DNA of 64,000 bases from Verrucomicrobiia bacterium (lineage in GTDB: Bacteria; Verrucomicrobiota; Verrucomicrobiia; Verrucomicrobiales; DEV007). Numbering within the stretch: the first letter of the stretch is position 1; every line of letters begins with the position of its first letter. Below are positions 11,368 to 46,016 of the stretch, one piece after another. The stretch covers positions 124,001 to 188,000 of the forward strand of contig JAUICH010000001.1 in assembly GCA_030427505.1 (NCBI GenBank), given 5' to 3'. The position numbers and the translations under genes are program-made. The notes under the pieces are model-generated. The model was not told the DNA's origin, ran no database searches, and saw nothing but the letters and a program-made list of their open reading frames with translations.

Positions 11368-12795
11368 ATGCCTTTCTTGAATCCCGATTCCTTCTCCCCC
11401 GTTCTTCTCGCCGCCGGCGGTGGATTCCGATTCGCCATCGAACAAGCCCACGCCCCAGGGCTGGTCATCTGTGTCATTCTCTTCATTTTTTCGCTCTTCA
11501 GTTGGTCGGTCATGGTGGCGAAGGCCATGGCTCTGAAAAAGGCGGATACCCGCGACGCGGAGTTCCGCAAAGAGTTTCACAACAGCCGCGATCCCATGGA
11601 ACTTTTCGCGGAACATGGGCGGATTCCAGGCTCGCCCTTGTACGCGGTGTACCGGAACGGATCGGCGGAACTCGGAATGCTCATGACCGGCTCCGATGAG
11701 GTGGACGAAACCTTCCTGGCTCGCCTGCACCGGGCTGGCCGGATTCCCTTTGCCCAAACCCGCTCCGTCCAGCAGGCCATCGAAAACGCTAAGAGCGAAG
11801 CCGTATCCCACCTGGAAAGCCGCATGTCCTGGCTGGCTACCGCTGTCAGTGGGGCGCCCTTTCTCGGGCTGCTCGGCACGGTATGGGGGGTGATGGAAAC
11901 CTTCAGTGGCATCGCTGGCGGGGGTGGCTCCGCCAGTCTGCAATCCATGGCGCCCGGAGTCGCTTCCGCTTTGGTCACCACCGTTCTGGCGCTGCTGGTG
12001 GCCATTCCCGCCATGTTTGGCTACAACTACCTGGCCGCCGCCATCCGGAAGAAGATCCGGGCGATGGACCAGTTCGCCTCCGTGTTCATGAACGAGATCG
12101 AGCGCTACTACGTAGCCTTCGACAGTCCGGTCACCCCCTTCGATTTCGATCCCAAGCCGGAGTTCGATCAGGAGGAAGAATTCGAAAGCGAAGAGGAATT
12201 TGACACCGAGCTGGAGTTCGAAACCGGGGACGAAGCCGTGGGCGGCACCGCCCCAATCAAGCCTCCGGTGGCGCCTCCCGCTCCCGTCTTGAATCGCGAG
12301 GAAGCTCCCAAGCCAATCGAAAAAGAGACCCAGTCTCCGAACCCGCCCGCGTTGCGCCTGGAACCCATCCTGGAACTCGAAGAGGAGGAGACTCCGATCG
12401 AAGCGCCCGAACTGGCTAAAGCTCCGAAGCCCGAAATAACCTTCTTCGAGGAAGAGGAACCAGAGGAGGAGCCCGCCGTTGCCAAGTCCAACGAAGCTTC
12501 TCTGGAAGAGTCGAAACCGGCGCCCATACTGGAGGAAGAGGCAAAGGCGCCGGAAGAAAAGCCGCCCGCCCTTCCGGTGTCCTATCCTTCGCCTCCGGAC
12601 TTGGAGGAACTGGAACCGTGGGAGCCCAAGAGCACTCTTCAAGGGAAGACCGGAACCAAGACGGCGCCCATTGTCCGGGAGCCACTGCCGCTCCGCTACG
12701 AACGGGACGACGAAGACGAGTTTGAAATCAATCCCATCGCCCGTCACGCCGCCGCCCACAGGGAGGCTGCGATGGAGACCGCGCCCTTGCTCTAG
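11368..12795 (+). CDS. tolQ: TolQ/ExbB-family proton channel with long acidic tail
   Basis: 475 residues; the family is usually 220-250. The channel part shows one early membrane helix (about residues 31-52, LVICVILFIFSLFSWSVMVA), then a cytoplasmic region, then the two pore helices around GAPFLGLLGTVWGVMETF and APGVASALVTTVLALLVAIPA. These match the MotA/TolQ/ExbB signature. After about residue 250 there are some 225 residues of Glu/Pro-rich sequence (repeats like FDQEEEFESEEEFDTELEFE), with no predicted fold, which would be cytoplasmic. With TolR it forms the proton-driven inner-membrane motor that pulls on TolA. It is first in a four-gene operon. The tail is unusual and may recruit a partner. 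Confidence 0.88.
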   Translation: MPFLNPDSFSPVLLAAGGGFRFAIEQAHAPGLVICVILFIFSLFSWSVMVAKAMALKKADTRDAEFRKEFHNSRDPMELFAEHGRIPGSPLYAVYRNGSAELGMLMTGSDEVDETFLARLHRAGRIPFAQTRSVQQAIENAKSEAVSHLESRMSWLATAVSGAPFLGLLGTVWGVMETFSGIAGGGGSASLQSMAPGVASALVTTVLALLVAIPAMFGYNYLAAAIRKKIRAMDQFASVFMNEIERYYVAFDSPVTPFDFDPKPEFDQEEEFESEEEFDTELEFETGDEAVGGTAPIKPPVAPPAPVLNREEAPKPIEKETQSPNPPALRLEPILELEEEETPIEAPELAKAPKPEITFFEEEEPEEEPAVAKSNEASLEESKPAPILEEEAKAPEEKPPALPVSYPSPPDLEELEPWEPKSTLQGKTGTKTAPIVREPLPLRYERDDEDEFEINPIARHAAAHREAAMETAPLL

Positions 12796-12844
12796 CTTTC
12801 CTGCCGTCCGCTTTTGTTGACTGCCCACATTCCCTGCCTGCCAC

Positions 12845-13270
12845 ATGCGCCGTTTTGCCGAAACTGAGACGCCATCATCCGTGTCCACACTGGCGGAGAT
12901 TAATATGACTCCGCTGCTGGACTTGGCGTTCGTGCTGCTGGTGATCTTCATGATCACCGCGCCGTTTCTGGCCGAGAGCGCGGATCTCACGCTTCCCTCA
13001 TCCGACGCCAATCGGGAGGCGGTGGACCCGGCATCGGTCTCCATCATTTCCATCGACCGGGAAGGGCGTCTCCAACTGAATGCTCAAGACATCTCCGAGG
13101 CCGCGCTGGCGGAACGGCTGATCCAGGCGAAAGCGGAAGATCCCGGGCTGGCGGTGCTGATCCGGGCCGACCAACGGTTGTCCGTGCAGGACGTGGTCAA
13201 CGTGATGGATGTCTTGAAGACCTGCGAAATTACCAAAGTGGGTCTGGTGACCAAGCCCGCAGGGTCCTGA
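12845..13270 (+). CDS. tolR: TolR/ExbD-family motor subunit
   Basis: 141 residues. One N-terminal membrane helix (LDLAFVLLVIFMITAPF) is preceded by INMTPLLDLAFV, in which the Asp is the proton-carrying residue of the family. The periplasmic domain follows (LTLPSSDANREAV ... GRLQLNAQDISEAALAERL ... LAVLIRADQRLSVQDVVNVMDVLKTCEITKVGLVT). It couples proton flow through TolQ to mechanical work. It begins 49 bp after tolQ and is followed by tolA-like 24 bp later. Confidence 0.93.
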   Translation: MRRFAETETPSSVSTLAEINMTPLLDLAFVLLVIFMITAPFLAESADLTLPSSDANREAVDPASVSIISIDREGRLQLNAQDISEAALAERLIQAKAEDPGLAVLIRADQRLSVQDVVNVMDVLKTCEITKVGLVTKPAGS

Positions 13271-34555: not shown

Positions 34556-35872
34556 ATGACGGAGAGACAGAAAGTCTTGTTCTCAATCGCGGGCGCATTG
34601 GTGTTGCACCTCTTGCTCCTGCTGGCGCTTACCATTTTTCTGCCCATTGCGAACGCGCTGACGCCCACCCTGCCGAAACCGGCTCCGCCGGACGAGCCGG
34701 AGGAAATTACCATTCTCCTGGAAGATGTGATTCCGGAGCCCGAACCGGAACCGGAATTCGAGCAGCAATACGCCCGGACTTTCCCGGACCAAGAGTCCGA
34801 TATCCAGCCGGAGAACGCGCCCTTCCATTCCGACCGGAATACCCTGGCCGCCAGCGAACTGCCCCCGGATCCCAATGGCGAGAAATTCCTGCCCACCGTG
34901 GATGGGATGAAAGAAGTGCCGTGGATCGAGCTGCGGGATCAGGACTTCCAGGACGGAGATTTCTCCGACCGGCCCATGGCGGCGCCTTCCCAGCCTTCGC
35001 CCCCCATGACGCCGCAAATGCGCCCGCCGTCCATAACGCCGGACAGCATTTTCGCCAATACGGACCCGTCCCCAGCGGACAAACCATCGCCTGAAGAGTC
35101 TCAAGATCAGCCGGACAAGCCCGTAGAAGAACAGGGCGAGGCCGACAAGCAGCCCGAAAATCCGTCCCAGGAGAAGCCGCTGGAAAACATTACGGACTCA
35201 GCCGAAAAGCTGATCCTGCCCAGTCCGGATGAAACCGGTCCCGCTCAGATGGAGGAATTCAAGGAAACGATCGAGGAGGGCAGGGACGATCCCGATGGGC
35301 CTCAGGTGGGCCGCAAAACGGCGGAGGAAGACATGGCCTCCCGCGCGGAGAAGGAGACCGAGGAAATTGGCCGCCCCGCGCAACCGGACCCGGCGCCGAA
35401 GCGGGTCCGGATTGGGCCTATCTCCGCCTCCGCGCTTTCGCCCGCCGCCAACATGCCTCAGCCGCCGCTGCCGCAACCTTCCGAGAAGCCGGCCTTCATG
35501 ACGGAGACCCGGGCGAGTTCCGTCAGCGGTTCCATTTCCAACAAGGGAAGCCGCGCCCTGAACGTGGAAAACAACGCCTTGGGCCGTTACAAGAAAGCGC
35601 TGGCCCAGGCCTTCGAGCGGCAGTGGCATCGCTACCGCATGGATAACGCGGGCAGTGTGGAGTTTGGAAATATTAAGATCCGTTTTCGGGTGGACCGCCA
35701 GGGGTATCCCCGCAATCTGGAGATCATCCGGAGTTCTGAAGGAGCCACCGTCATGAAGGATTTCAGTCTTCGCGCGGTGCAGGACGCGGATTATCCGCCG
35801 ATGCCGGCCGAGATTGCCGCCGAGTATGGGGCCAGCGGCCTGGAAATCACCTACGACATCATTATCTACTGA
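34556..35872 (+). CDS. TonB-like energy transducer, cluster B
   Basis: 438 residues. A membrane helix (FSIAGALVLHLLLLLALTIFLPIANAL, about residues 9-35) is followed by an acidic, Pro-rich linker (about 40-330, EPEPEPEFEQQY; many Asp/Glu). A C-terminal TonB-type domain lies at about residues 345-438 (NALGRYKKALAQAFERQWHRYRMDNAGSVEFGNIKIRFRVDRQGYPRNLEIIRSSEG). It is the first gene of a set with exbB and exbD immediately downstream, so it carries the proton-motive force to outer-membrane partners. The client receptor is not in this window. A T-run-type terminator precedes it. Confidence 0.85.
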   Translation: MTERQKVLFSIAGALVLHLLLLLALTIFLPIANALTPTLPKPAPPDEPEEITILLEDVIPEPEPEPEFEQQYARTFPDQESDIQPENAPFHSDRNTLAASELPPDPNGEKFLPTVDGMKEVPWIELRDQDFQDGDFSDRPMAAPSQPSPPMTPQMRPPSITPDSIFANTDPSPADKPSPEESQDQPDKPVEEQGEADKQPENPSQEKPLENITDSAEKLILPSPDETGPAQMEEFKETIEEGRDDPDGPQVGRKTAEEDMASRAEKETEEIGRPAQPDPAPKRVRIGPISASALSPAANMPQPPLPQPSEKPAFMTETRASSVSGSISNKGSRALNVENNALGRYKKALAQAFERQWHRYRMDNAGSVEFGNIKIRFRVDRQGYPRNLEIIRSSEGATVMKDFSLRAVQDADYPPMPAEIAAEYGASGLEITYDIIIY

Positions 35873-35921
35873 GACTGGCATTCTTGCGGTTTCAAAGATA
35901 AGAGTATGGCCCTCAACTGAT

Positions 35922-36620
35922 ATGCAGGTTCTAGACTTTTTGTTATCTGGCGGCGTCTTCATGTGGATGATCGTCCTGTGTTCCCAGGCCGCCGCGGGCA
36001 TTGCGATTCACCGGTTCGTGTCCCTGCGCCGGGAAACTGTGATGCCGCGAAAGGTGGAGGCCGCCCTGGAGCGGGCGGATGAGCTGATTGTCCAAGGGGA
36101 CTACAGCGGGGTACAGTCCATCGTTTCGCGGAGCCAGACGCCCCTGGGACGGATCGGGCGGGTGGCGCTTTCGCCGACCCACCGGACCCGGGAAGAAGCC
36201 GCTGTCGCGGTGGAGGCGATTGCGCGGGAAGAGGTGGTGAAACTGCAGACCGGTCTGGCCGCCTTGGAAGTGATCATCACCATCGCTCCGCTGCTGGGCC
36301 TGCTGGGAACGGTGAGCGGGCTGGTGAACGTGTTCGATACTCTTGGCCAGGAAGGGGCGGATGCCTCGGACCCCACCGCCATCGCGGCGGGAATCGCCAT
36401 GGCGCTGAACACCACCATTGCCGGTCTGGCGGTGGCGGTGCCCGTGGTGATCGTGCACAGCTATTTCAGTAAACGCATCGAATCCATGGCAGTCCGGATG
36501 GAAGTGCTAATGGCCAAGGTCCTTCACGCTTTCCACCGCCACGGAGGGTCGGAACTGGAGGAGAAAGAAAAAACTCCGGACGATTTCCTGGCCAGCCGGA
36601 AGTCTGACCTCTTTTCGTAA
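35922..36620 (+). CDS. exbB: ExbB-family proton channel, cluster B
   Basis: 232 residues from the ATG at 35922. The early helix is FLLSGGVFMWMIVLCSQAAAGIAI, and the pore helices are around ITIAPLLGLLGTVSGLVNVFDTL and AIAAGIAMALNTTIAGLAVAVPVVIVHSYF. The family signature GLLGTV...F is complete. Its stop codon overlaps the exbD start by one base (TAATG), so translation is coupled. Length is typical (no long tail, unlike the TolQ at 11368). Confidence 0.93.
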   Translation: MQVLDFLLSGGVFMWMIVLCSQAAAGIAIHRFVSLRRETVMPRKVEAALERADELIVQGDYSGVQSIVSRSQTPLGRIGRVALSPTHRTREEAAVAVEAIAREEVVKLQTGLAALEVIITIAPLLGLLGTVSGLVNVFDTLGQEGADASDPTAIAAGIAMALNTTIAGLAVAVPVVIVHSYFSKRIESMAVRMEVLMAKVLHAFHRHGGSELEEKEKTPDDFLASRKSDLFS

Positions 36621-37045
36621 TGAAGTTTTTCGTCCGGAAAAAGGCCAATCCTGCGGTGCCGATCGTCTCCCTGATCGACATTCTCGCCATTCTGCTGATT
36701 TTCTTCATCGCCACCACCACGTTCAAGCAGCGCAAGTCCCTGGTGAACGTGGCGCTGCCGACCTCCTCCCAGATGCCCTCCGCGCGGGACCCGGTGCAGC
36801 GGGTCACTTTGGCCGTGACCAAGGAGGAGACCATCGCGCTGAACGAGCAGCCGGTGGAACTGTCCGAATTACCCGCCATTTTACGCGATTTGAAGGCGTC
36901 GAACCCCGAGGCCGTCCTGGAGTTGAAAGCGGACAAGGATGTCTCGCTGGGATTTCTCGTAAAAGTGTGGGACTCCGCCAGTCAGGCGGGGCTGAAAGCG
37001 GGGGAGATCCCCCTGAGGATTCAACTTAAGCAGGGACAGCCATAA
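36620..37045 (+). CDS. exbD: ExbD-family motor subunit, cluster B
   Basis: 141 residues. One membrane helix (IVSLIDILAILLIFFIATTTF) with the proton-carrying Asp in SLIDILA. The periplasmic part follows (QRVTLAVTKEETIALNEQPVELSELPAILRDLKASNPEAVLELKADKDVSLGFLVKVWDSASQAGLKAGEIPLRI). Together with ExbB it energises the TonB-like protein at 34556. Confidence 0.93.
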   Translation: MKFFVRKKANPAVPIVSLIDILAILLIFFIATTTFKQRKSLVNVALPTSSQMPSARDPVQRVTLAVTKEETIALNEQPVELSELPAILRDLKASNPEAVLELKADKDVSLGFLVKVWDSASQAGLKAGEIPLRIQLKQGQP

Positions 37046-37107: not shown

Positions 37108-37671
37108 ATGGTCAGGGAAATCATCATGTTTGGCGATCCCGTGCTGCGGAAAAAGGGCGCCGCGGTAGAGGAAGTGACGCCGGAGATCCGCCAGCTGGCC
37201 GAGGACATGCTGGAAACCATGCGGGAAGCCCAGGGCGTTGGGCTGGCCGCGCCTCAAGTAGGCGAGTCGCTGCAACTGGCGGTGGTGGACGTTTCTCACG
37301 ATCCGGAGTGCGTCAGCTTTCTGAGGGTCAATGGCGAGGACGCCTCGATGGACGACATCATGCCCCTGGTGTTCATCAATCCCGTTGTGGAAGGCAGCGA
37401 CGAAAAGGACACCGACGTGGAGGGCTGTCTCTCCTTCCCGGATTTGCGCGCTGATATTACCCGTCCCGCGGAGGTCAATGCCAAGCTCACTACCTTGGAT
37501 GGCGAGGTCTTGGAAATCGAGACGGACGGACTGCTGGCCCGCGCCATTCAGCATGAGGTCGATCACCTCTTTGGCGTGCTGTTCATCGACCGGATGAGCA
37601 CGGCGCGAAAGCTTGCGATCAAGAAGACGCTGAAAGAGCTCCAGCGTACCTACAGCCAAAGTCAGAGCTAG
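37108..37671 (+). CDS. def: Peptide deformylase
   Basis: 187 residues. It removes the formyl group from nascent proteins using a metal ion. All three motifs are present: motif 1 GVGLAAPQVGES (residues about 41-52), motif 2 EGCLSFP with the Cys ligand, and motif 3 QHEVDHLFGVLF with HEVDH. A ~20-residue insertion (VNGEDASMDDIMPLVFINPVVEG) is slightly longer than the E. coli form. It starts with an ATG at 37108, 62 bp after exbD. Confidence 0.95.
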   Translation: MVREIIMFGDPVLRKKGAAVEEVTPEIRQLAEDMLETMREAQGVGLAAPQVGESLQLAVVDVSHDPECVSFLRVNGEDASMDDIMPLVFINPVVEGSDEKDTDVEGCLSFPDLRADITRPAEVNAKLTTLDGEVLEIETDGLLARAIQHEVDHLFGVLFIDRMSTARKLAIKKTLKELQRTYSQSQS

Positions 37672-37968: not shown

Positions 37969-40900
37969 ATGGGTTTCTCATTCCGCAATCTCTTTGCACA
38001 AGGCAAAGAACCAGGCGATTTCCGTTCCGATTCGTCTGATGTGGCGGAGTTTGATTCCGAAGCTGAAAACATGGAGGAAGCGCCCTTTTTCTCTCCCAAT
38101 CCGCTGCCTTCAGACCGGGGAAATTTTGAAGCTTTGTTCCAATCCAATCAAGGCGGAGTCAATCCAGAAAATCCTTTCGGTAAAGCGGGCGGAGGCGCCC
38201 AGCGCACTTTCAAGGCCGCGGACCTGGAGCGGTTGATTCCTCCCGCGCTGGTGGCGCGGGGCGGGGTGCCGGGCGAACAGTCCGTGGTGGTGAATCTGCC
38301 ATACGAAGGTTGCTTGGACGTAAAGCTGTCCACCATTTACCGGGCTTGCCCGCAGTTGTTTGCCGCCGATATCACACCGCTGAATGACGCGGACTTCACT
38401 CTGCCCGAGCCCAATACGCAGATTCCGGGCGGCTCCGCTCCCAACAATCCCTTCGAGTCGTCTTCTGCGGCGAAAAAGCACACCGGCCTGCCGCCGGTGA
38501 GGCAGGCGGGCCAGGCTCCACCGCCGTTGACGGGGGGCGGGCATAAGTCAGAGAACGGGCAACAGGCCTCCGCTCCGTCCGTCTCCGATCCCTTTGCTTC
38601 GGCGCCCGGCATGGACTCGCCATTCCAATCGCCTTTCTCGGCCTTGGCCTCGGAACAGCAGGGGCCTCCTCCGTCGGGAAGTTCCGCGCTTGGAGGTTCC
38701 GTGCCTCTTAAAAAAGAATCCGCGCCGCCTTCGAGCGCGGGGCAGCCTCCCTTCCAACAGCCTTCGGGGCCTCCGCCAAAGAATCCTTTCTCAGAAGCGT
38801 CTCCCGCCGGACAAGCGGGGCCGCCCGCGTCCATGCCGCCACTGCGGCCTCCACAGACGCCTTCCCGCGAGCCGGAGTGGAAGCAAGGTTCGCCGCCAGC
38901 GGGCCACCTGCCGGGTAAAGCGCCGGAAAGCGGCAATCCTTCAGGAGATCCCTTTGCCTCTTTTAAGTCTCCATTCGGTTCTCCTTTGTCTAACAATCCC
39001 TTTTCCAAGGGGGAGGCTCAGCCAAAAAAGGGAGCGCCTTCGGAAGTCGAAGCTCCGCCCGCCTCCCGTGTTTCCGGGGGGAACCCCTTCGGTCATGCGT
39101 CATCGAGTGCTCCCGCCTCGTTGAAATCGGCTCCGGCGGGCAAGCCCCTATTTGGCGCGCCGCCGATCCAAGCTCCCGCTCAGGCGAAACAAGCCCCAGC
39201 GTCACCCCCGCCGTTGGCATCGTCCCCGGCGGCTGGGCCTGCCCCGGGAAGGCAGGATTCTCCGCCATGGCTTTCCGGTCCTTCGGCTCAGGCGCCCGTG
39301 TCTTCTCCCGCGGTGGCGGCTCCGCCGTTGAAAAAGCCGGAAGCCGAGTCCCAAGTCTCCCCTGAGTCCTCGAAGGACCAGCAGCAGATTAAGTTGAGCC
39401 TGTCTCCCTTGCTATCTGGCCTGCGTGCCCTGGACTTGGGCGGGGTCAGTCCCGAAGCGATCCCTGAGTCTTCGATCACCTTCGTGCCGCTGTCCAAAGT
39501 CGAGAGCCAATTGGGGAGCGAGAACCTCACCCTTCCGCTGGCGGATTTGATCGACGGAAGCGAATCCGGGGTGCGCAGCCTGCTGGCGCGCGCCAATCGC
39601 GGACTCAGGGTGCCCGTTCCGCAGAACCTCATTTTTCATCAGTTACCGGAAAGTCCCGGTAACAGCCCGGACTCCCCCGCCAAAACCCCCGCGCCACTTT
39701 CCTGGCCGCCCGCCGCCAGTTCGGAAGACAGTCCTCCTGTCTTCGGCACGCCATTTTCCGAGCCGGCCTCAACGCCGTGGTATGAAAAGAAACCCGCTCC
39801 GGCGCCGGAAGAAGCCACGCCGCGGCCTTCCAAGCCGGCTGAGGAGCCACGGCGGGATGCCTCTCAGCCCTTCCCGTTTTTGAAACCAATGGGGGGCGGC
39901 GACACATCCGGCTCCCCAGCCGGGCAGGCTCCGGTAGCGGCCGCGCCGTCTTCAACCGAGCTGCCTAACAACCCCTTTGCCGCCGCGATTGAGAAGTCGG
40001 CTCCGGCGAAAGAGGTGGCGAAGAATCCGTTCGCCGATTCTTCTTCCGGTTCCGCGCCGGTCACGCAAGAGCCCGCTGGCCCCGAGGCGAAGATGGGAGA
40101 ACCGGCCGCGCCCAAGCTCTCGGCGTTTCCCGCCGCCGGGTTTCCCAAAGGTAAGAAGGAAGAGCCGCAGGCTTCTCCCGCGCGGGAAGAGAGAAACGGA
40201 AGCGGGGACGAATATCCGCTGAAAGACCTGCCGGCGTTTCAGAATCTGGGGCCGATCGAAAACCCCTTCGCCGACTTCTCGGATCCCACGCCGCTTGAGG
40301 AGGAGAACGATGAAGAGCCCGCCGCCAGGGAAAGCAAAGAAGCCAAGGCTCCGGAACCGCTGAAAGAAACACAGCCGGAAGCGCCCAGAGAGCCGGAGGC
40401 GAAAAAGGAGTCCCAAGCCGCCGAACCCCAGTCCAGTTCCGCTCCGGTAGCCGCGGAGCACAAGGACCTTTCCAAACCCGCTCCCGGATTTAGCGCTTCT
40501 TCGTGGGCCAAGGCCGCGAAGGCCAAGCAGGGCTCCTTCTTTGACGAGTTGGAGTCCGAAGACAAACCGGAATCGCCGGCTCCGGAGAGCAAGGCGCCCG
40601 CCGCCGCTCCTCTTCCGGCAATGCCGGTGGTCCCGGCAAACGGAGGGCAGGGAAGCGATCAGGTCCGCGACGTGGAGTTGCGGGCGATTTTCGGCACCAA
40701 TGAATCTTTCGATCTTCAAGGCGTGGCCGACCGGACGCTGGAACTGCCCGGCGTGGCTTCCTGCGTCATCGTCAATCAGCGGGGCGACATCCGGGCGGGA
40801 CGGCCCCGGAGCGGCAACGGCGAAGCCACCAGCGAGCTGCTGAAACAGGCCGCCGCGATGTTCGAGCGGGTCCGCGAACTTTCGCAGTTCATCGGCGCGG

Positions 40901-41064
40901 ACAACGCGGAAACCTTTACCATCCACACCGACCGTGGCGTCGTCAGCTTTTTCATGAGCGGCGAGCGCTGTCTGACCGTCCGGCACAAACCCGGCGGGTT
41001 CGACCCCGGAGTCCGGGAAAAACTCATTCTCGTCGCGCGCGGCATGGCGCGGCTTGCTGGCTGA
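37969..41064 (+). CDS. Low-complexity NPF-repeat protein with C-terminal roadblock-like domain
   Basis: 1031 residues. It has no signal peptide, so it is cytoplasmic. Most of it is Pro/Ser/Ala-rich and disordered, with eight NPF tripeptides (in ENPFGK, NNPFES, KNPFSE, NNPFSK, GNPFGH, NNPFAA, KNPFAD, ENPFAD contexts), two DPF and three SPF. Two short blocks look structured (about residues 84-150 and 480-570) with VVNLPYEGCLDVKLSTIY and LTLPLADLIDG. The last ~125 residues (VELRAIFGTNESFDLQGVADRTLELPGVASCVIVNQRGDI to the end) have the strand-helix pattern of roadblock/LC7 proteins. It is first in a likely operon with an MglA-type GTPase, whose ATG is 1 bp past its stop. Confidence 0.75.
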   Translation: MGFSFRNLFAQGKEPGDFRSDSSDVAEFDSEAENMEEAPFFSPNPLPSDRGNFEALFQSNQGGVNPENPFGKAGGGAQRTFKAADLERLIPPALVARGGVPGEQSVVVNLPYEGCLDVKLSTIYRACPQLFAADITPLNDADFTLPEPNTQIPGGSAPNNPFESSSAAKKHTGLPPVRQAGQAPPPLTGGGHKSENGQQASAPSVSDPFASAPGMDSPFQSPFSALASEQQGPPPSGSSALGGSVPLKKESAPPSSAGQPPFQQPSGPPPKNPFSEASPAGQAGPPASMPPLRPPQTPSREPEWKQGSPPAGHLPGKAPESGNPSGDPFASFKSPFGSPLSNNPFSKGEAQPKKGAPSEVEAPPASRVSGGNPFGHASSSAPASLKSAPAGKPLFGAPPIQAPAQAKQAPASPPPLASSPAAGPAPGRQDSPPWLSGPSAQAPVSSPAVAAPPLKKPEAESQVSPESSKDQQQIKLSLSPLLSGLRALDLGGVSPEAIPESSITFVPLSKVESQLGSENLTLPLADLIDGSESGVRSLLARANRGLRVPVPQNLIFHQLPESPGNSPDSPAKTPAPLSWPPAASSEDSPPVFGTPFSEPASTPWYEKKPAPAPEEATPRPSKPAEEPRRDASQPFPFLKPMGGGDTSGSPAGQAPVAAAPSSTELPNNPFAAAIEKSAPAKEVAKNPFADSSSGSAPVTQEPAGPEAKMGEPAAPKLSAFPAAGFPKGKKEEPQASPAREERNGSGDEYPLKDLPAFQNLGPIENPFADFSDPTPLEEENDEEPAARESKEAKAPEPLKETQPEAPREPEAKKESQAAEPQSSSAPVAAEHKDLSKPAPGFSASSWAKAAKAKQGSFFDELESEDKPESPAPESKAPAAAPLPAMPVVPANGGQGSDQVRDVELRAIFGTNESFDLQGVADRTLELPGVASCVIVNQRGDIRAGRPRSGNGEATSELLKQAAAMFERVRELSQFIGADNAETFTIHTDRGVVSFFMSGERCLTVRHKPGGFDPGVREKLILVARGMARLAG

Positions 41065-41065
41065 C

Positions 41066-41716
41066 ATGGCGCTCGTCAATCACTTCACCAAAGAAGTCCA
41101 GTTCAAGATCGTTTATTGCGGAACGCCCTTGGGCGGAAAGACGAGTAATCTGATCTACGTCCATTCCCGGCTCCGCTCCGACTTGAGGGGAGACCTCGTC
41201 TCTCTGGCCACGGCGTCAAACCGCACGCTGTTCTTCGACTTTCTCCAGGTGGAGGCCACCACCATCGCTTCCTACCAGACGCGCTTTCAGCTTTACACCG
41301 TGCCAGGGCAGGAAGTGTACGATCACACCCGGGAGATTGTGCTGAAAGGGGCCGACGGCATTGTGTTCGTGGCGGACTCGGAGGCTTACCGGTTGGAGGA
41401 AAATGTCCAGGCCCTGCAAACGGTGCGTGAAGTTCTGGAGCGCTTGAACCGGGATCCGGATACCCTGCCCTGGGTGTTTCAGTTTAACAAACGGGACCTG
41501 CCGGACGCGATCCCGGTGACCACGCTGGCCGAGACCTTGGAAACCGGGGAGCGCTATTGCTTTGAAGCCGTGGCCACGGAGGGCCTGAATGTGTTTGCCA
41601 CTCTGGAAGCCCTGACTCAGGAAATTTTACGCCAGTTTCACTACACCCAGGTGGGCGAGACCGAGGCCGGTCCGGAATCTCACCGGACCTCTCCGGAAAC
41701 CGTGGAGGCGACTTGA
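41066..41716 (+). CDS. MglA-type Ras-like small GTPase
   Basis: 216 residues from the ATG at 41066. P-loop GTPLGGKTSN (residues about 19-28); the switch region with FFDF; the atypical TVPGQE where Ras has DTAGQ, which is a hallmark of MglA; and NKRDLP for guanine recognition. The last ~20 residues are charged. MglA is a cytoplasmic GTPase that sets the leading pole in gliding and twitching bacteria and is controlled by an MglB roadblock protein. A roadblock-like protein is encoded both before (fused to the NPF protein) and after it. The start is 1 bp downstream of the previous stop. Confidence 0.92.
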   Translation: MALVNHFTKEVQFKIVYCGTPLGGKTSNLIYVHSRLRSDLRGDLVSLATASNRTLFFDFLQVEATTIASYQTRFQLYTVPGQEVYDHTREIVLKGADGIVFVADSEAYRLEENVQALQTVREVLERLNRDPDTLPWVFQFNKRDLPDAIPVTTLAETLETGERYCFEAVATEGLNVFATLEALTQEILRQFHYTQVGETEAGPESHRTSPETVEAT

Positions 41717-41761
41717 CTCGTAATTTCAGGACCTGGCCAGCCAAGCTGGCACTGAGAAAAC

Positions 41762-42322
41762 ATGACGGGTGACTATCATCTGGAATTGTCCGAAGAAACC
41801 GTGGGCATATTGAACGGCATCCTGGACCGTCTGCTCCGGGACGCCGAACTGCAATATGTGGCGTTAATGGACGAGGGCGGCACGGTCCTGGCCGGCCGTC
41901 ATGAAGCGGCGGGACGTTCCGGCTCGCTGCCGGCGGAAGCGGCGGGCGCGCTGGCCGCCGGAGCGCTTCGCGCCTCCCAGGCTCTGGCAGGCATGTTGGG
42001 CGAGACCGCGTTTCAAGACCAGATCCTGCACGGAGATCGGCTGTTGATTTACCTCAGGGGGATGGGAGAGTTGGGAGTATTGTTGGCTGTGGCTCACGCG
42101 GAGATGCCTGTCGGGGTGGTTCGCCAATGCGTCGTGAAACATTCGGAAGGGATTGGAACTTTCCTTGCTTCCATCCGGACAAACACGCCGCCGGAGTTGC
42201 CGCCTAAAATGCCAGCTCCGAAGGAGCCAGAGCCGGAACCGGCGCCAGGAATGGAACCGGAAAGATCCGCCGAAACGCCCGCTTTTAGAGAATCGCCCAA
42301 ATACGTCTTTCAGCTTGGATAA
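41762..42322 (+). CDS. MglB-like roadblock/LC7 protein with Pro-rich tail
   Basis: 186 residues. A roadblock/LC7 fold is seen at about residues 10-135: VGILNGILDRLLRDAELQYVALMDEGGTVLAGRHE, then LQAG-type GALRASQALAGMLGE, FQDQILHGDRLLIYLRGMGELGVLLAVAHAEMPVGVVRQ. The C-terminal tail is Pro/Glu-rich and short. MglB dimers act as the GTPase-activating partner of MglA. This one is divergent from the canonical MglB but is placed directly after the GTPase (45 bp). Its partner in the operon is the roadblock domain at the end of the NPF protein. Confidence 0.78.
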   Translation: MTGDYHLELSEETVGILNGILDRLLRDAELQYVALMDEGGTVLAGRHEAAGRSGSLPAEAAGALAAGALRASQALAGMLGETAFQDQILHGDRLLIYLRGMGELGVLLAVAHAEMPVGVVRQCVVKHSEGIGTFLASIRTNTPPELPPKMPAPKEPEPEPAPGMEPERSAETPAFRESPKYVFQLG

Positions 42323-42494
42323 TGCAGACCTTCTGGGAATTCCGATTTTTTCAAAAAGAAACCGTGTTTGGATCGGGGAGTTTTTCAATTTTCCGCATTT
42401 CTCCCTTTCCCGCGTTTCGGCAATGTGATACTCGAACTTGCAGCGGTCTGGGAAGGGACCCTTCAGTTCAGCCAGTCCAGGTTAATACGGGGAT
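42323..42494. other. Intergenic region between the MglB-like gene and cluster C
   Basis: 172 bp, mildly AT-rich (about 42340-42420). No hairpin or clear promoter box seen. All genes on either side run on the plus strand. Confidence 0.3.
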
Positions 42495-43235
42495 ATGATA
42501 CTGATTTCGAAAGGCGGACCACTGATGTGGATCCTACTGGGGTGCAGCATTCTCGCCATCGCCATCGCTCTTGAGCGGTACTTCCATTTCCACCGCGCCC
42601 GTATTGATGTGGGCGATTTGCTTCACGGCCTGCGGAACCTGATCCGCAACCGGAACTACGCCGAAGCGCTTCACGAATGTGCCGGGACCCCTGGTCCCGC
42701 CGCCCGGGTCATTCACTCCGCCATCATCCGGCACGACGCGCCGCGGCGGGAATTGAAGGACATCGTCCAGGAAAGCGGTCAGTTGGAGGTGCCCAAGCTG
42801 GAGAAGTACCTGGCCGTAATGCTCTCCATTGCCTACGTGGCCCCATTGATAGGACTCTTGGGTACCGTACTCGGGCTCCTGAATACCTTCATGCAGGTGA
42901 CCGCCAAAGGGGGGTATGCCACGGCCACGGAAATTTCCGAGGGGGTATACGAGAGCCTGATCAGTTCCGCCACCGGGCTGGTGGTGGCCATTCCGACCTT
43001 CATCCTTTATTCCTTCCTGCTCGCTTACACCAAGACCCTGCTTCACGACATGGAGCGTGCCGGGATTGAGATTGTGAACATCATCGTGGACAGCCGCGAG
43101 CGGACCTCGGAAATCATCGAGTTCCGCCGGGATCCGGAGGATACCGGCCCAAAGCGTGAAAGCGGCGGGAAGGGTAGCGAGAGGAAGGGCGCCGGTGGCT
43201 CAGCCGGCGATAGGCCGGCGGGTATTTCCGGATGA
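42495..43235 (+). CDS. exbB: ExbB/TolQ-family proton channel, cluster C
   Basis: 246 residues. First helix PLMWILLGCSILAIAIALERYFHF, then a cytoplasmic helix pair, then pore helices VMLSIAYVAPLIGLLGTVLGLLNTFM and YESLISSATGLVVAIPTFILYSFLLAY. All signature residues are present. The C-terminal ~30 residues are Gly/Lys-rich. Its stop overlaps the start of exbD by 4 bp (ATGA). It follows the MglA module on the same strand, 172 bp after it. Confidence 0.92.
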   Translation: MILISKGGPLMWILLGCSILAIAIALERYFHFHRARIDVGDLLHGLRNLIRNRNYAEALHECAGTPGPAARVIHSAIIRHDAPRRELKDIVQESGQLEVPKLEKYLAVMLSIAYVAPLIGLLGTVLGLLNTFMQVTAKGGYATATEISEGVYESLISSATGLVVAIPTFILYSFLLAYTKTLLHDMERAGIEIVNIIVDSRERTSEIIEFRRDPEDTGPKRESGGKGSERKGAGGSAGDRPAGISG

Positions 43236-43639
43236 AGCTGCAGCTGTCTCTGCCAGAGCGTGCCGGGTTGATCTACACGGCGCCCGTCTTGGACGTGGTC
43301 ATCTTGCTGATGATCTTTTTCCTTCTGGCGTCCAATTTCGTGATCCGCTCCGGCATCGCGGTGGAGGAGCCGTTCTCCAGTTCCAACCTTCCAGCCGTTG
43401 CGCAGTCCCACCTCGTGACCCTGACGCCGGGGCCGACTGGAAAGATCTTCTTCAATGAAGACCAAGTGGATCTGGCGGAACTGACCGAACGGCTGCGGGC
43501 TTCTCCCGAAGAGATCCGCGCCGTCATTTTCCGCGCGGACCGGAACGCGGCGTTTGGCTCCGTGGTGGAAATTTCCAATCTGATCCTGGAGGAAGGGTTT
43601 GACCTCTACTATTCCGCCGGAGGGGATTCGGCGAACTGA
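43232..43639 (+). CDS. exbD: ExbD/TolR-family motor subunit, cluster C
   Basis: 135 residues. One membrane helix (PVLDVVILLMIFFLLASNFVI) with the Asp in APVLDVVILL. The periplasmic domain has VTLTPGPTGKIFFNEDQVDLAELTERLRASPEEIRAVIFRADRNAAFGSVVEISNLILEEGFDLYYS. Overlaps exbB by 4 bp and precedes the TonB-like gene by 12 bp. Confidence 0.92.
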   Translation: MKLQLSLPERAGLIYTAPVLDVVILLMIFFLLASNFVIRSGIAVEEPFSSSNLPAVAQSHLVTLTPGPTGKIFFNEDQVDLAELTERLRASPEEIRAVIFRADRNAAFGSVVEISNLILEEGFDLYYSAGGDSAN

Positions 43640-43651
43640 CGGCCGGCAGGT

Positions 43652-44410
43652 ATGGCGCGGGAAACACAGGAGCGAGAAGGACTCATTTTCCAGTGGCCCA
43701 AGGGAAAGAAAGTTCCGGGAGGCAAACTGGGGGGCTTCGTCTTTCTTTCCTTCGCTGGGCATGCCTTTGCCTTTTACCTGTTCCAGGTGGGATATCCACC
43801 TGTCGAGCGTGTGGAGCCGCTGCCGGACCGGGTTTTTGTTTTCAATCCCGCCGAACCCGCCACCCAGTCCCTGAACCGCGAAATCAACGATCGTCTCGCG
43901 TTTCTCCGGGCCCCGGGAGAAAGCACGGACACGCGAATCGAGATGCGGGATTTTTCCTCGTTGTTCCTGTTCCGGCCTTCCTTTCTCGACCGGGAGGTTG
44001 CGTTCCGGTCGCCGCCGCTGCCTCCCGTGGAGGCTCCGGAAGATGCCGTGCCCAGTCTTTCCGAGCCCCTGGCGTTTTTCCCGCCCGTTTCGAAAGCCGG
44101 GACCCTTCCGGTGGAGGAAGAGATGCCCACGCTTCAGACCATTTATTGGGAAATTGGTGGCGACTTGATGAGGAGAAAAATTCAGGGAGTGGAAACCCTG
44201 GAGAAGCATCTGGACGGCCTGGTTCCGGAGACACCGCTTCGTCTGCGAGTGGCTGTGGAAGCGAGTGGCGCCGTCCGTCAGGTGGAGCCAGTGACGGAAA
44301 CTTCCCTTCCCGATATCGAGTCCATTTTGGAGGCCGTTACCGAGTACCTGCGTTTCGAACCCGTGAGGGCGGAAGGACTGACCTGGGGATGGTTTGAAAT
44401 CCGCTCCTGA
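43652..44410 (+). CDS. TonB-like single-span protein, cluster C
   Basis: 252 residues. One membrane helix (about residues 29-47, GFVFLSFAGHAFAFYLFQV) preceded by a basic N-terminus, then about 200 periplasmic residues. It has no long Pro-rich linker. The last ~90 residues (LEKHLDGLVPETPLRLRVAVEASGAVRQVEPVTETSLPDIESILEAVTEYLRFEPVRAEGLTWGWFEI) follow the TonB C-terminal pattern loosely. The gene order exbB-exbD-TonB-like supports a transducer role. It is the most divergent of the three transducers in this window. Confidence 0.65.
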   Translation: MARETQEREGLIFQWPKGKKVPGGKLGGFVFLSFAGHAFAFYLFQVGYPPVERVEPLPDRVFVFNPAEPATQSLNREINDRLAFLRAPGESTDTRIEMRDFSSLFLFRPSFLDREVAFRSPPLPPVEAPEDAVPSLSEPLAFFPPVSKAGTLPVEEEMPTLQTIYWEIGGDLMRRKIQGVETLEKHLDGLVPETPLRLRVAVEASGAVRQVEPVTETSLPDIESILEAVTEYLRFEPVRAEGLTWGWFEIRS

Positions 44411-44432
44411 GCCGTGATAGACTGTTTCCGGA

Positions 44433-44672
44433 ATGATTCACCTGACCCTCACCCACCTCATCCTGGTTTACCTGGTGTTGATCTTGGGGGTTCTGTTTTG
44501 CGTCTGGGTCAGCGGAGAAATTTTGCGGAGCCGGCGGGAACGCCAAATGCGTAAGAACTACGTCATCTGCGGAATCTGCGATCACATCTACGAAGACCGG
44601 ACGGGCAAAACCCTTCTCACTTGCCCGCGCTGCGGGGCGCTCAACGAGCGCGGTAAGGTCCGGGAAATCTGA
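44433..44672 (+). CDS. Small membrane protein with a zinc-ribbon tail
   Basis: 79 residues. One membrane helix (THLILVYLVLILGVLFCVWVSGEIL), then a basic linker (RSRRERQMRKN) and a cytoplasmic zinc ribbon: CGICDHIYEDRTGKTLLTCPRCG, four cysteines in CxxC pairs. It is likely to be real because the ribbon is intact and the composition is sensible. The role is unknown. It follows the TonB-like gene by 22 bp on the same strand and may belong to cluster C. Short membrane-plus-ribbon proteins are often accessory factors of envelope complexes. Confidence 0.7.
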   Translation: MIHLTLTHLILVYLVLILGVLFCVWVSGEILRSRRERQMRKNYVICGICDHIYEDRTGKTLLTCPRCGALNERGKVREI

Positions 44673-44768: not shown

Positions 44769-46016
44769 ATGGAGCGAAGAGTCGTCATAACGGGGATGGG
44801 AATCCTCTCTCCGATCGGGAATGATCTGGAGACGTTTTGGTCAAATTTGGTCGCGGGAAAGAGTGGCATCAGGAAGATTGCCTCTTTCGATACCACCGAT
44901 TACGACTGCAAGATCGGGGGGGAAGTCCTCGATTTTGAACCTGTCCAGTACTTCAAAAATCCTAAGGATGCCCGGCGCACGGATCGCTTCGTGCAGATGG
45001 GCATGGCCGCTTCCAAGATGGCCCTGGAAGACTCCGGCATGGATTTGGAGACGGAAGACCGGGACCGGATCGGGGTCATGGTCGGCAGCGGCATCGGGGG
45101 CCTGCACACCTTGGAAGCCCAGCACGGCACCTTGGTGAAGCGCGGTCCTTCCCGGGTCTCGCCTTTCACGATCCCGATGATGATCAGCAACATCGCCAGC
45201 GGGATCATTTCCATGGAGTTCGACCTTCGCGGACCGAACATGTGCATCGTGACCGCCTGCGCCACGGCGAATCAGAACATCGGGGAAGCCTGGCGGATGA
45301 TTAAGTTTGGCGACGCGGATGCCTTTATCGCCGGCGGCGCGGAAGCTTCGATCGCGCCGATGGGGCTTTCCGGTTTCGGAAACATGAAAGCGCTCAGTCT
45401 GCGCAATGACGAACCGGAGCGAGCCTCGCGTCCCTTCGACACGGGCCGGGACGGTTTTGTCATGGGCGAAGGCGCGGGCGTGGTCGTGATTGAGGAACTG
45501 GAGCACGCCCGCAAACGGGGCGCGCATATCTATTGTGAACTGACGGGTTACGGCGCCACGGCGGATGCCCATCACCTGACCGCGCCGCACCCGGAAGGCA
45601 TTGGCGCGGCTCGCTGCATGGCCATCTCCATGAAGCACGCCAAGGTGAATCCGGAGGACGTGGATTACGTGAACGCTCACGCCACCTCCACGGGTCTGGG
45701 AGACATCTGTGAGACCAAAGCCATCAAGAGCGCGCTGGGCGACCGGGCGAAAAACGGCCTGGTGGTCAGCTCCACGAAGTCCATGACGGGTCACCTCCTG
45801 GGCGCCGCCGGTGGGGTGGAACTGGCGGCTTCGGTGAAAGCCATTACCGACAGCGTGGTGCCGCCGACCATTAACCTGGAAGATCCCGATCCGCAATGCG
45901 ACCTGGACTACGTGCCCAACGAGGCGCGGGAAATGAAAGTCCGGCACGCCATGAGCAACTCCTTCGGCTTCGGCGGGCACAACGCCTGCCTGCTCGTCAG
46001 CCGCTTCGACGATTGA
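44769..46016 (+). CDS. fabF: 3-oxoacyl-ACP synthase II
   Basis: 415 residues. It elongates fatty acids by condensing malonyl-ACP with acyl-ACP. The catalytic triad Cys-His-His is visible: VTACATANQNIG (Cys), VNAHATSTGLGD (first His) and KSMTGHLLGAAGG (second His). The start RRVVITGMGILSPIGND is typical. No acpP or fabG is adjacent, so it is a stand-alone gene. It ends 25 bp before the stop of the convergent apt gene. Confidence 0.96.
   Translation: MERRVVITGMGILSPIGNDLETFWSNLVAGKSGIRKIASFDTTDYDCKIGGEVLDFEPVQYFKNPKDARRTDRFVQMGMAASKMALEDSGMDLETEDRDRIGVMVGSGIGGLHTLEAQHGTLVKRGPSRVSPFTIPMMISNIASGIISMEFDLRGPNMCIVTACATANQNIGEAWRMIKFGDADAFIAGGAEASIAPMGLSGFGNMKALSLRNDEPERASRPFDTGRDGFVMGEGAGVVVIEELEHARKRGAHIYCELTGYGATADAHHLTAPHPEGIGAARCMAISMKHAKVNPEDVDYVNAHATSTGLGDICETKAIKSALGDRAKNGLVVSSTKSMTGHLLGAAGGVELAASVKAITDSVVPPTINLEDPDPQCDLDYVPNEAREMKVRHAMSNSFGFGGHNACLLVSRFDD

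Follow-up and report, generated by a model that had tools for sequence, protein, structure and literature searches.

Gene Content of the Locus

The window is a 64,000-nucleotide stretch of a 6.4 Mb verrucomicrobial genome (G000:C6:124001-188000). Seven consecutive genes within it place a small GTPase module beside an envelope motor of the ExbB-ExbD-TonB type (Table 1). The roadblock adaptor, mglA, and MglB-like genes are referred to as unit A, and the exbB, exbD, tonB-like, and zinc-ribbon genes as unit B. An earlier inspection of the DNA letters, here called the sequence-only reading, had listed these seven genes, with unit B as its cluster C. All seven were recovered at the same coordinates, on the plus strand. 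Relatives were compared under working family labels (f1, f2, etc.), in which f1 is the window's family, f10 is Chthoniobacterales (Spartobacteria), and f2 is probably Akkermansiaceae as judged from genome features. Named relatives of operon B belong to Verrucomicrobiales. Most relatives are draft metagenome assemblies, so a missing gene is weaker evidence than a present one, and each family was represented by a sample of its members.

Table 1. Features of the locus and its flanks, with the evidence for each assignment
Feature	Position	Strand	Evidence
Roadblock adaptor: N-terminal MGFSFRNLF, Pro-rich linker with 11 [NS]PF, C-terminal roadblock/LC7 domain (about 40700-41061)	37969..41064	+	Gene order, fold, motifs
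MglA-type small GTPase, Group 1 motifs intact: GTPLGGKTSN, Arg-finger NRTLFFDF, TVPGQ, NKRDLP	41066..41716	+	Alignment, structure-family matches
MglB-like roadblock protein	41762..42322	+	Pfam Robl_LC7 1.4e-5; NCBIfam MglB; directly after mglA in 49/61 loci
ExbB/TolQ-type motor subunit	42495..43235	+	PF01618 1.1e-24; orthologues in 109/113 genomes of the order
ExbD/TolR-type subunit, transmembrane Asp kept (PVLDVV)	43232..43639	+	PF02472 9.3e-16; Asp alignment column
TonB/TolA-type transducer: SxxxH (S33, H37) in transmembrane helix; TonB_C-like C-domain, residues 165-252	43652..44410	+	Alignment, model, fold search
Membrane-anchored zinc-ribbon protein, 79 residues (C46, C49, C64, C67)	44433..44672	+	Alignment; zinc-ribbon families match weakly
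fabF (KAS II), found beside the motor operon across many families	44769..46016	+	Locus comparison
def (peptide deformylase), conserved upstream flank	37108..37671	+	Adaptor follows def in f2 relatives
Second TonB-ExbB-ExbD cluster, adjoining def and the adaptor	34556..37045	+	Pfam; exbB-exbD-def-adaptor order in five f2 loci

The GTPase and Its Two Roadblock Partners

Group 1 MglA proteins are marked by a P-loop GKT, an Arg finger before the G2 Thr, TVPGQ at G3, and NKRD at G4 (PMC4316618). The window protein has all of the Group 1 hallmarks tested and an MglB-type roadblock partner nearby, and by these features it is a true Group 1 MglA. It matched the Thermus and Myxococcus MglA structures with E-values of 1.8e-49 and 3.4e-49, respectively. 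In Verrucomicrobiota, Group 5 was the only MglA group reported by a survey from 2014 (PMC4316618); of the 84 verrucomicrobial sequences aligned here, almost every one carries Group 1 motifs. The MglB-like protein scored 57 bits (2.1e-15) against NCBIfam MglB, which is under the family cut-off, and is likely the GTPase-activating protein (GAP) partner of MglA. The best mglA start, an ATG at 41066, directly follows the adaptor stop at 41064, so the two genes are likely translationally coupled.

The long first gene of unit A had been described as an NPF-repeat protein with a roadblock-like end, a description upheld by a structural model. Its C-terminal domain was modeled by AlphaFold at a mean predicted local distance difference test (pLDDT) score of 88.8 as a roadblock fold with MglB nearest. 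The top Foldseek match was M. xanthus MglB (E 3.7e-5, probability 1.00), comparison with Thermus MglB gave a VIA Z of 13, and profile comparison with the MglB-like family gave an E-value of 5e-6. Since the adaptor and the MglB-like protein are both roadblock proteins, MglA has two roadblock partners here. The linker contains 11 [NS]PF motifs against 1.1 expected, a count reached in 0 of 500 shuffles. Most tested adaptors of f1, f2, f3, and f4, all of the same order, share this enrichment (exceptions include L039 and L048), and many f1 and f4 members begin with M-[SGAT]-F-[STN]-F-[RK]-x-[LIM]-[FY]. In other orders, the tested adaptors have zero or one xPF whether or not MglA is present. The repeats were considered as a mark of MglA dependence and rejected, because f2 adaptors carry them without an intact MglA.

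The Envelope Motor

Pfam confirmed the ExbB and ExbD calls of the sequence-only reading (Table 1), and its TonB-like and membrane zinc-ribbon calls were borne out by relatives and models. The 252-residue TonB-like protein of the window had no Pfam match, FHA included, and its homologues match TonB_C (3.6e-5). Its modeled C-terminus resembled the C-domains of TonB and TolA, which fill the entire top of the list at VIA Z 6.5 to 5.0. The highest score was to BtuB-bound TonB, and Foldseek returned 1u07 with a probability of 0.99 but an E-value of 0.05. A conserved FxW lies near the N-terminus, and SxxxH is present in f1 and f10 members. The zinc-ribbon protein has a single N-terminal hydrophobic segment, and its four Cys are invariant among relatives.

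E. coli ExbD(D25N) and TonB(H20A) are inactive (PMC11658791), and both corresponding residues are kept in the window copies. Families f3, f4, and f5 and several f2 genomes have Asn in place of the transmembrane Asp of ExbD, G142 and G336 have Ser or Cys there, and the operon is nonetheless kept (L119, L120, L122, L123, L125-L131, L135, L138, L113). Unit B is therefore not a standard proton-driven motor everywhere. The earlier description of the machine as proton-driven fits the window copy and fails for these sister families. A tie between Asp loss and MglA absence was also considered and rejected; Asp versus Asn tracks lineage, not linkage.

The reduced 0.9 Mb genome G142 (L138) has no MglA and still carries exbB, exbD, and the zinc-ribbon gene near fabF, with a weak match to the tonB-like gene. 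No TonB-dependent receptor barrel (PF00593) was found in G142, and three were found in the window's own genome. Because G142 keeps the core without a detected barrel, the role of unit B is probably more than receptor energization. Unit B occurs almost throughout the order and also in a reduced genome without MglA, which makes the motor half housekeeping-like and gives no indication of motility. G142 also has one further ExbB-ExbD pair.

These results bear on one explanation, in which the operon is an ordinary TonB/Tol-like energizer and the adaptor and GTPase genes merely share its transcript or promoter, along with def and fabF. Retention of the core in G142 without a receptor barrel agrees with it, as does retention of exbB-exbD-tonB-zinc ribbon and nearby fabF across the class. 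On the plus strand, no terminator-like site lies in the 172-base gap from the MglB-like gene to exbB. We nevertheless regard this explanation as unlikely, since in f10 unit A lies on the strand opposite to unit B and fabF, so that no promoter is shared there, yet the two units are still neighbors.

Conservation of Gene Order

The sequence-only reading had offered conservation of this gene order across Verrucomicrobiota as a check on its proposal. MglA was detected in 71 of the 113 genomes of the order and an exbB orthologue in 109. Unit A proved nearly invariant in gene order: of 61 MglA loci, 60 have the adaptor immediately before mglA and 49 have the MglB-like gene immediately after it. Unit B proved nearly universal in the order, whether or not MglA was present. 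Adjacency of the two units was patchy. Unit B adjoined unit A in 17 of 23 scorable loci of f1, 3 of 21 of f4, 0 of 7 of f3, and 0 of 1 of f6. Outside the order, the units are collinear in f18 (G336), and unit A is inverted next to unit B and fabF in f10 (G124, G263, G514) and in Spartobacteria loci L194 and L205. The f10 inversion excludes a shared promoter there and leaves common ancestry of the arrangement untouched. In genome G072 (L086, L219), the sole exbB orthologue is beside unit A, with exbD, the tonB-like gene, and the zinc-ribbon gene on another contig. Outside the class, mglA and an MglB-like gene were adjacent in 15 of 15 fetched loci, and a weak adaptor-domain match lies next to mglA on the opposite strand in L220, L225, L228, L230, and L232.

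A second explanation assigns MglA and its two roadblock proteins to the control of type IV pili (their polarity or activity), the role they have in Myxococcus and Thermus, and takes the ExbBD operons for independent housekeeping genes and the adjacency for an ancestral relic. The intact Group 1 motifs, the separation of units A and B in most f3 and f4 loci, and the occurrence of B without A are all consistent with this. Every one of the 113 genomes of the order has a PilT family match over the cut-off, which agrees with pilus control, but PilT is equally present in the genomes without MglA, and type IV pilus co-occurrence was dropped as a discriminator. The only sense-strand neighbors of unit A that recur in more than half of a family are the adaptor, the MglB-like gene, and the motor genes. 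No pilus gene family was seen recurring beside unit A, the neighbors having been read from sequence and not all annotated. Pilus control is the leading alternative to the switch proposed below, though less likely than not.

Lineages without an Intact MglA

Genomes that lack MglA provided the most informative comparison. In 14 genomes, belonging to three families, no MglA was detected and the adaptor gene still stands shortly before the motor operon. It directly precedes exbB in G007, G061, G027, and G093 of f1, in G222, G554, G557, G574, and G577 of f15, and in G571, G539, G528, and G445 of f19, and none of these had an MglA match anywhere in the genome. G074 lacks mglA but has the adaptor, the MglB-like gene, and unit B in unchanged order, and its relative G079 carries mglA as a pseudogene. 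Elsewhere the catalytic motifs have been lost (no G3 Gln in G102 and L172, no G2 or G3 in G023). In the ExbB tree, the mglA-less adaptor-motor loci fall in at least four separate places, although some branches are long. The roadblock domain of the adaptor gave ratios of nonsynonymous to synonymous substitution rates (dN/dS) of 0.14-0.28 in three pairs from lineages without mglA beside the adaptor; in every pair, one member or both were checked for lack of mglA across the whole genome.

The f2 loci show a further arrangement. In all eight loci (L264-L271) the adaptor comes after def, and exbB-exbD stands directly before def in five of them. These adaptor homologues are short and mostly rich in SPF/NPF. 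The neighboring MglA-like proteins have lost the P-loop Ser/Thr and TVPGQ, as pseudo-GTPases, or the gene is absent. The window likewise has exbB-exbD-def upstream, so its adaptor sits between two ExbBD clusters. A third ExbB and ExbD pair lies within the window at 11713-13258.

The adaptor thus stays with MglA where MglA is present and with the ExbBD operon where MglA has been lost, the pattern expected of a linking adaptor, although a common promoter or inherited gene order may account for part of it. A relic of gene order alone, as pilus control supposes, does not predict an adaptor upstream of exbB after mglA loss in three families, nor a roadblock domain under purifying selection. Adjacency in several families and orders, its two arrangements, and the adaptor found with the motor in the absence of MglA support the conclusion, drawn from gene order, that the two halves are not simply chance neighbors. 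The option that they are unrelated, which the sequence-only reading had left standing, is weakened by the same observations and keeps some probability.

A Candidate GTPase Switch on the Envelope Motor

Retention of the adaptor beside motors after MglA loss suggests that switch and motor are functionally connected. We propose, with a probability of about 0.45, that the MglA/MglB switch works via the roadblock adaptor on ExbB-ExbD-TonB-type envelope motors. A more specific form, in which a Ras-like GTPase positions or gates a TonB/Tol-class ExbBD energizer through a dedicated xPF-repeat adaptor that works on the motor alone where MglA has been lost, is offered tentatively. A precedent exists in M. 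xanthus, where MglA acts on AglR, an ExbB/TolQ-type gliding subunit, and on GltJ (review, PMC12288465). There, MglC is a second roadblock protein that links MglB to a scaffold (PMC10329633).

Under this proposal, MglA-GTP and the MglB-like GAP would set the site or time at which the roadblock dimer of the adaptor binds. The MGFSFRNLF N-terminus and xPF linker would recruit or gate the cytoplasmic face of ExbB/ExbD, perhaps with a share taken by the zinc-ribbon protein. The energized ExbD/TonB-like pair would then pass force across the periplasm. In lineages without MglA, the adaptor would serve the motor with no switch. What the sequences establish directly is the set of parts with their folds, the MglA motifs, ExbD Asp, and SxxxH kept in the window, the gene order, and adaptors that sit beside exbB operons lacking mglA. 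Physical contact, the direction of control, localization, and the envelope process that the motor serves are inferences.

Several observations weigh against the proposed switch. Units A and B are apart in 7 of 7 scorable loci of f3, 18 of 21 of f4, and 6 of 23 of f1, and unit B is found in much of the class without unit A. The adjacency could be an ancestral order kept by a shared promoter, and the window also keeps def and fabF. Two f4 loci in which the units are linked (G085, G025) have Asn at the proton-site Asp of ExbD. The closest bond in f2 is between adaptor and def, not between adaptor and exbB. In the mglA-less genomes G409 and G523, the adaptor is apart from exbB; G568 was not scorable.

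If the proposal is true, a bacterial polarity GTPase would control the class of motor that energizes the outer membrane, beyond the sole known case of Myxococcus gliding. It would also offer a first hypothesis for MglA function in Verrucomicrobiota. Lineages that keep adaptor and motor with a lost or degraded MglA make the coupling testable by comparison.

Comparison with Known Systems

The locus had been suggested to encode an Agl/Glt-like gliding machine, and the same classes of ingredients are indeed present, namely MglA, an ExbB/TolQ-type motor with ExbD, a TonB-domain protein, and a zinc-binding protein. The Myxococcus motor AglRQS consists of one TolQ homologue (AglR) and two TolR homologues (AglQ, AglS), and GltG, a partner of AglR, combines FHA and TonB domains (PMC3169522). 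Unit B, in contrast, has a single ExbD, and the locus has no FHA-TonB protein like GltG and no tetratricopeptide repeat (TPR) protein like GltD or GltE. Its motor is nearly universal, independent of MglA, and kept in the reduced genome. Membership in Agl/Glt was therefore not borne out, and gliding is very improbable. Large TPR proteins do flank two other motor loci of this genome, C51 near 246 kb (L239) and C6 near 824 kb (L240), each of which has a single ExbB and two ExbD with no MglA beside them. By layout only, these two loci are the nearest to the Agl/Glt core in the window's genome, and one adjoins a Ser/Thr kinase gene.

The window copy of unit B resembles TonB-ExbB-ExbD and Tol systems in its ExbB and ExbD families, transmembrane Asp, SxxxH, and TonB/TolA-like C-domain. 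It differs from them in the extra membrane zinc-ribbon protein, the fabF flank, the loss of the Asp in sister families, and the retention of the operon in a genome without a detected TonB-dependent receptor barrel. To our knowledge, small-GTPase control has not been described for any TonB or Tol system.

Unit A is closest to the M. xanthus polarity module MglA/MglB(/MglC-RomR). It shares the Group 1 MglA with Arg finger and TVPGQ, the MglB-like roadblock protein, and a second roadblock protein comparable to MglC (PMC10329633), here the C-domain of the adaptor with its VIA Z of 13 to MglB. Unlike in M. xanthus, this second roadblock domain is the last part of a long, Pro-rich protein with xPF repeats and a conserved MGFSFRNLF start, and the module adjoins ExbBD-TonB operons.

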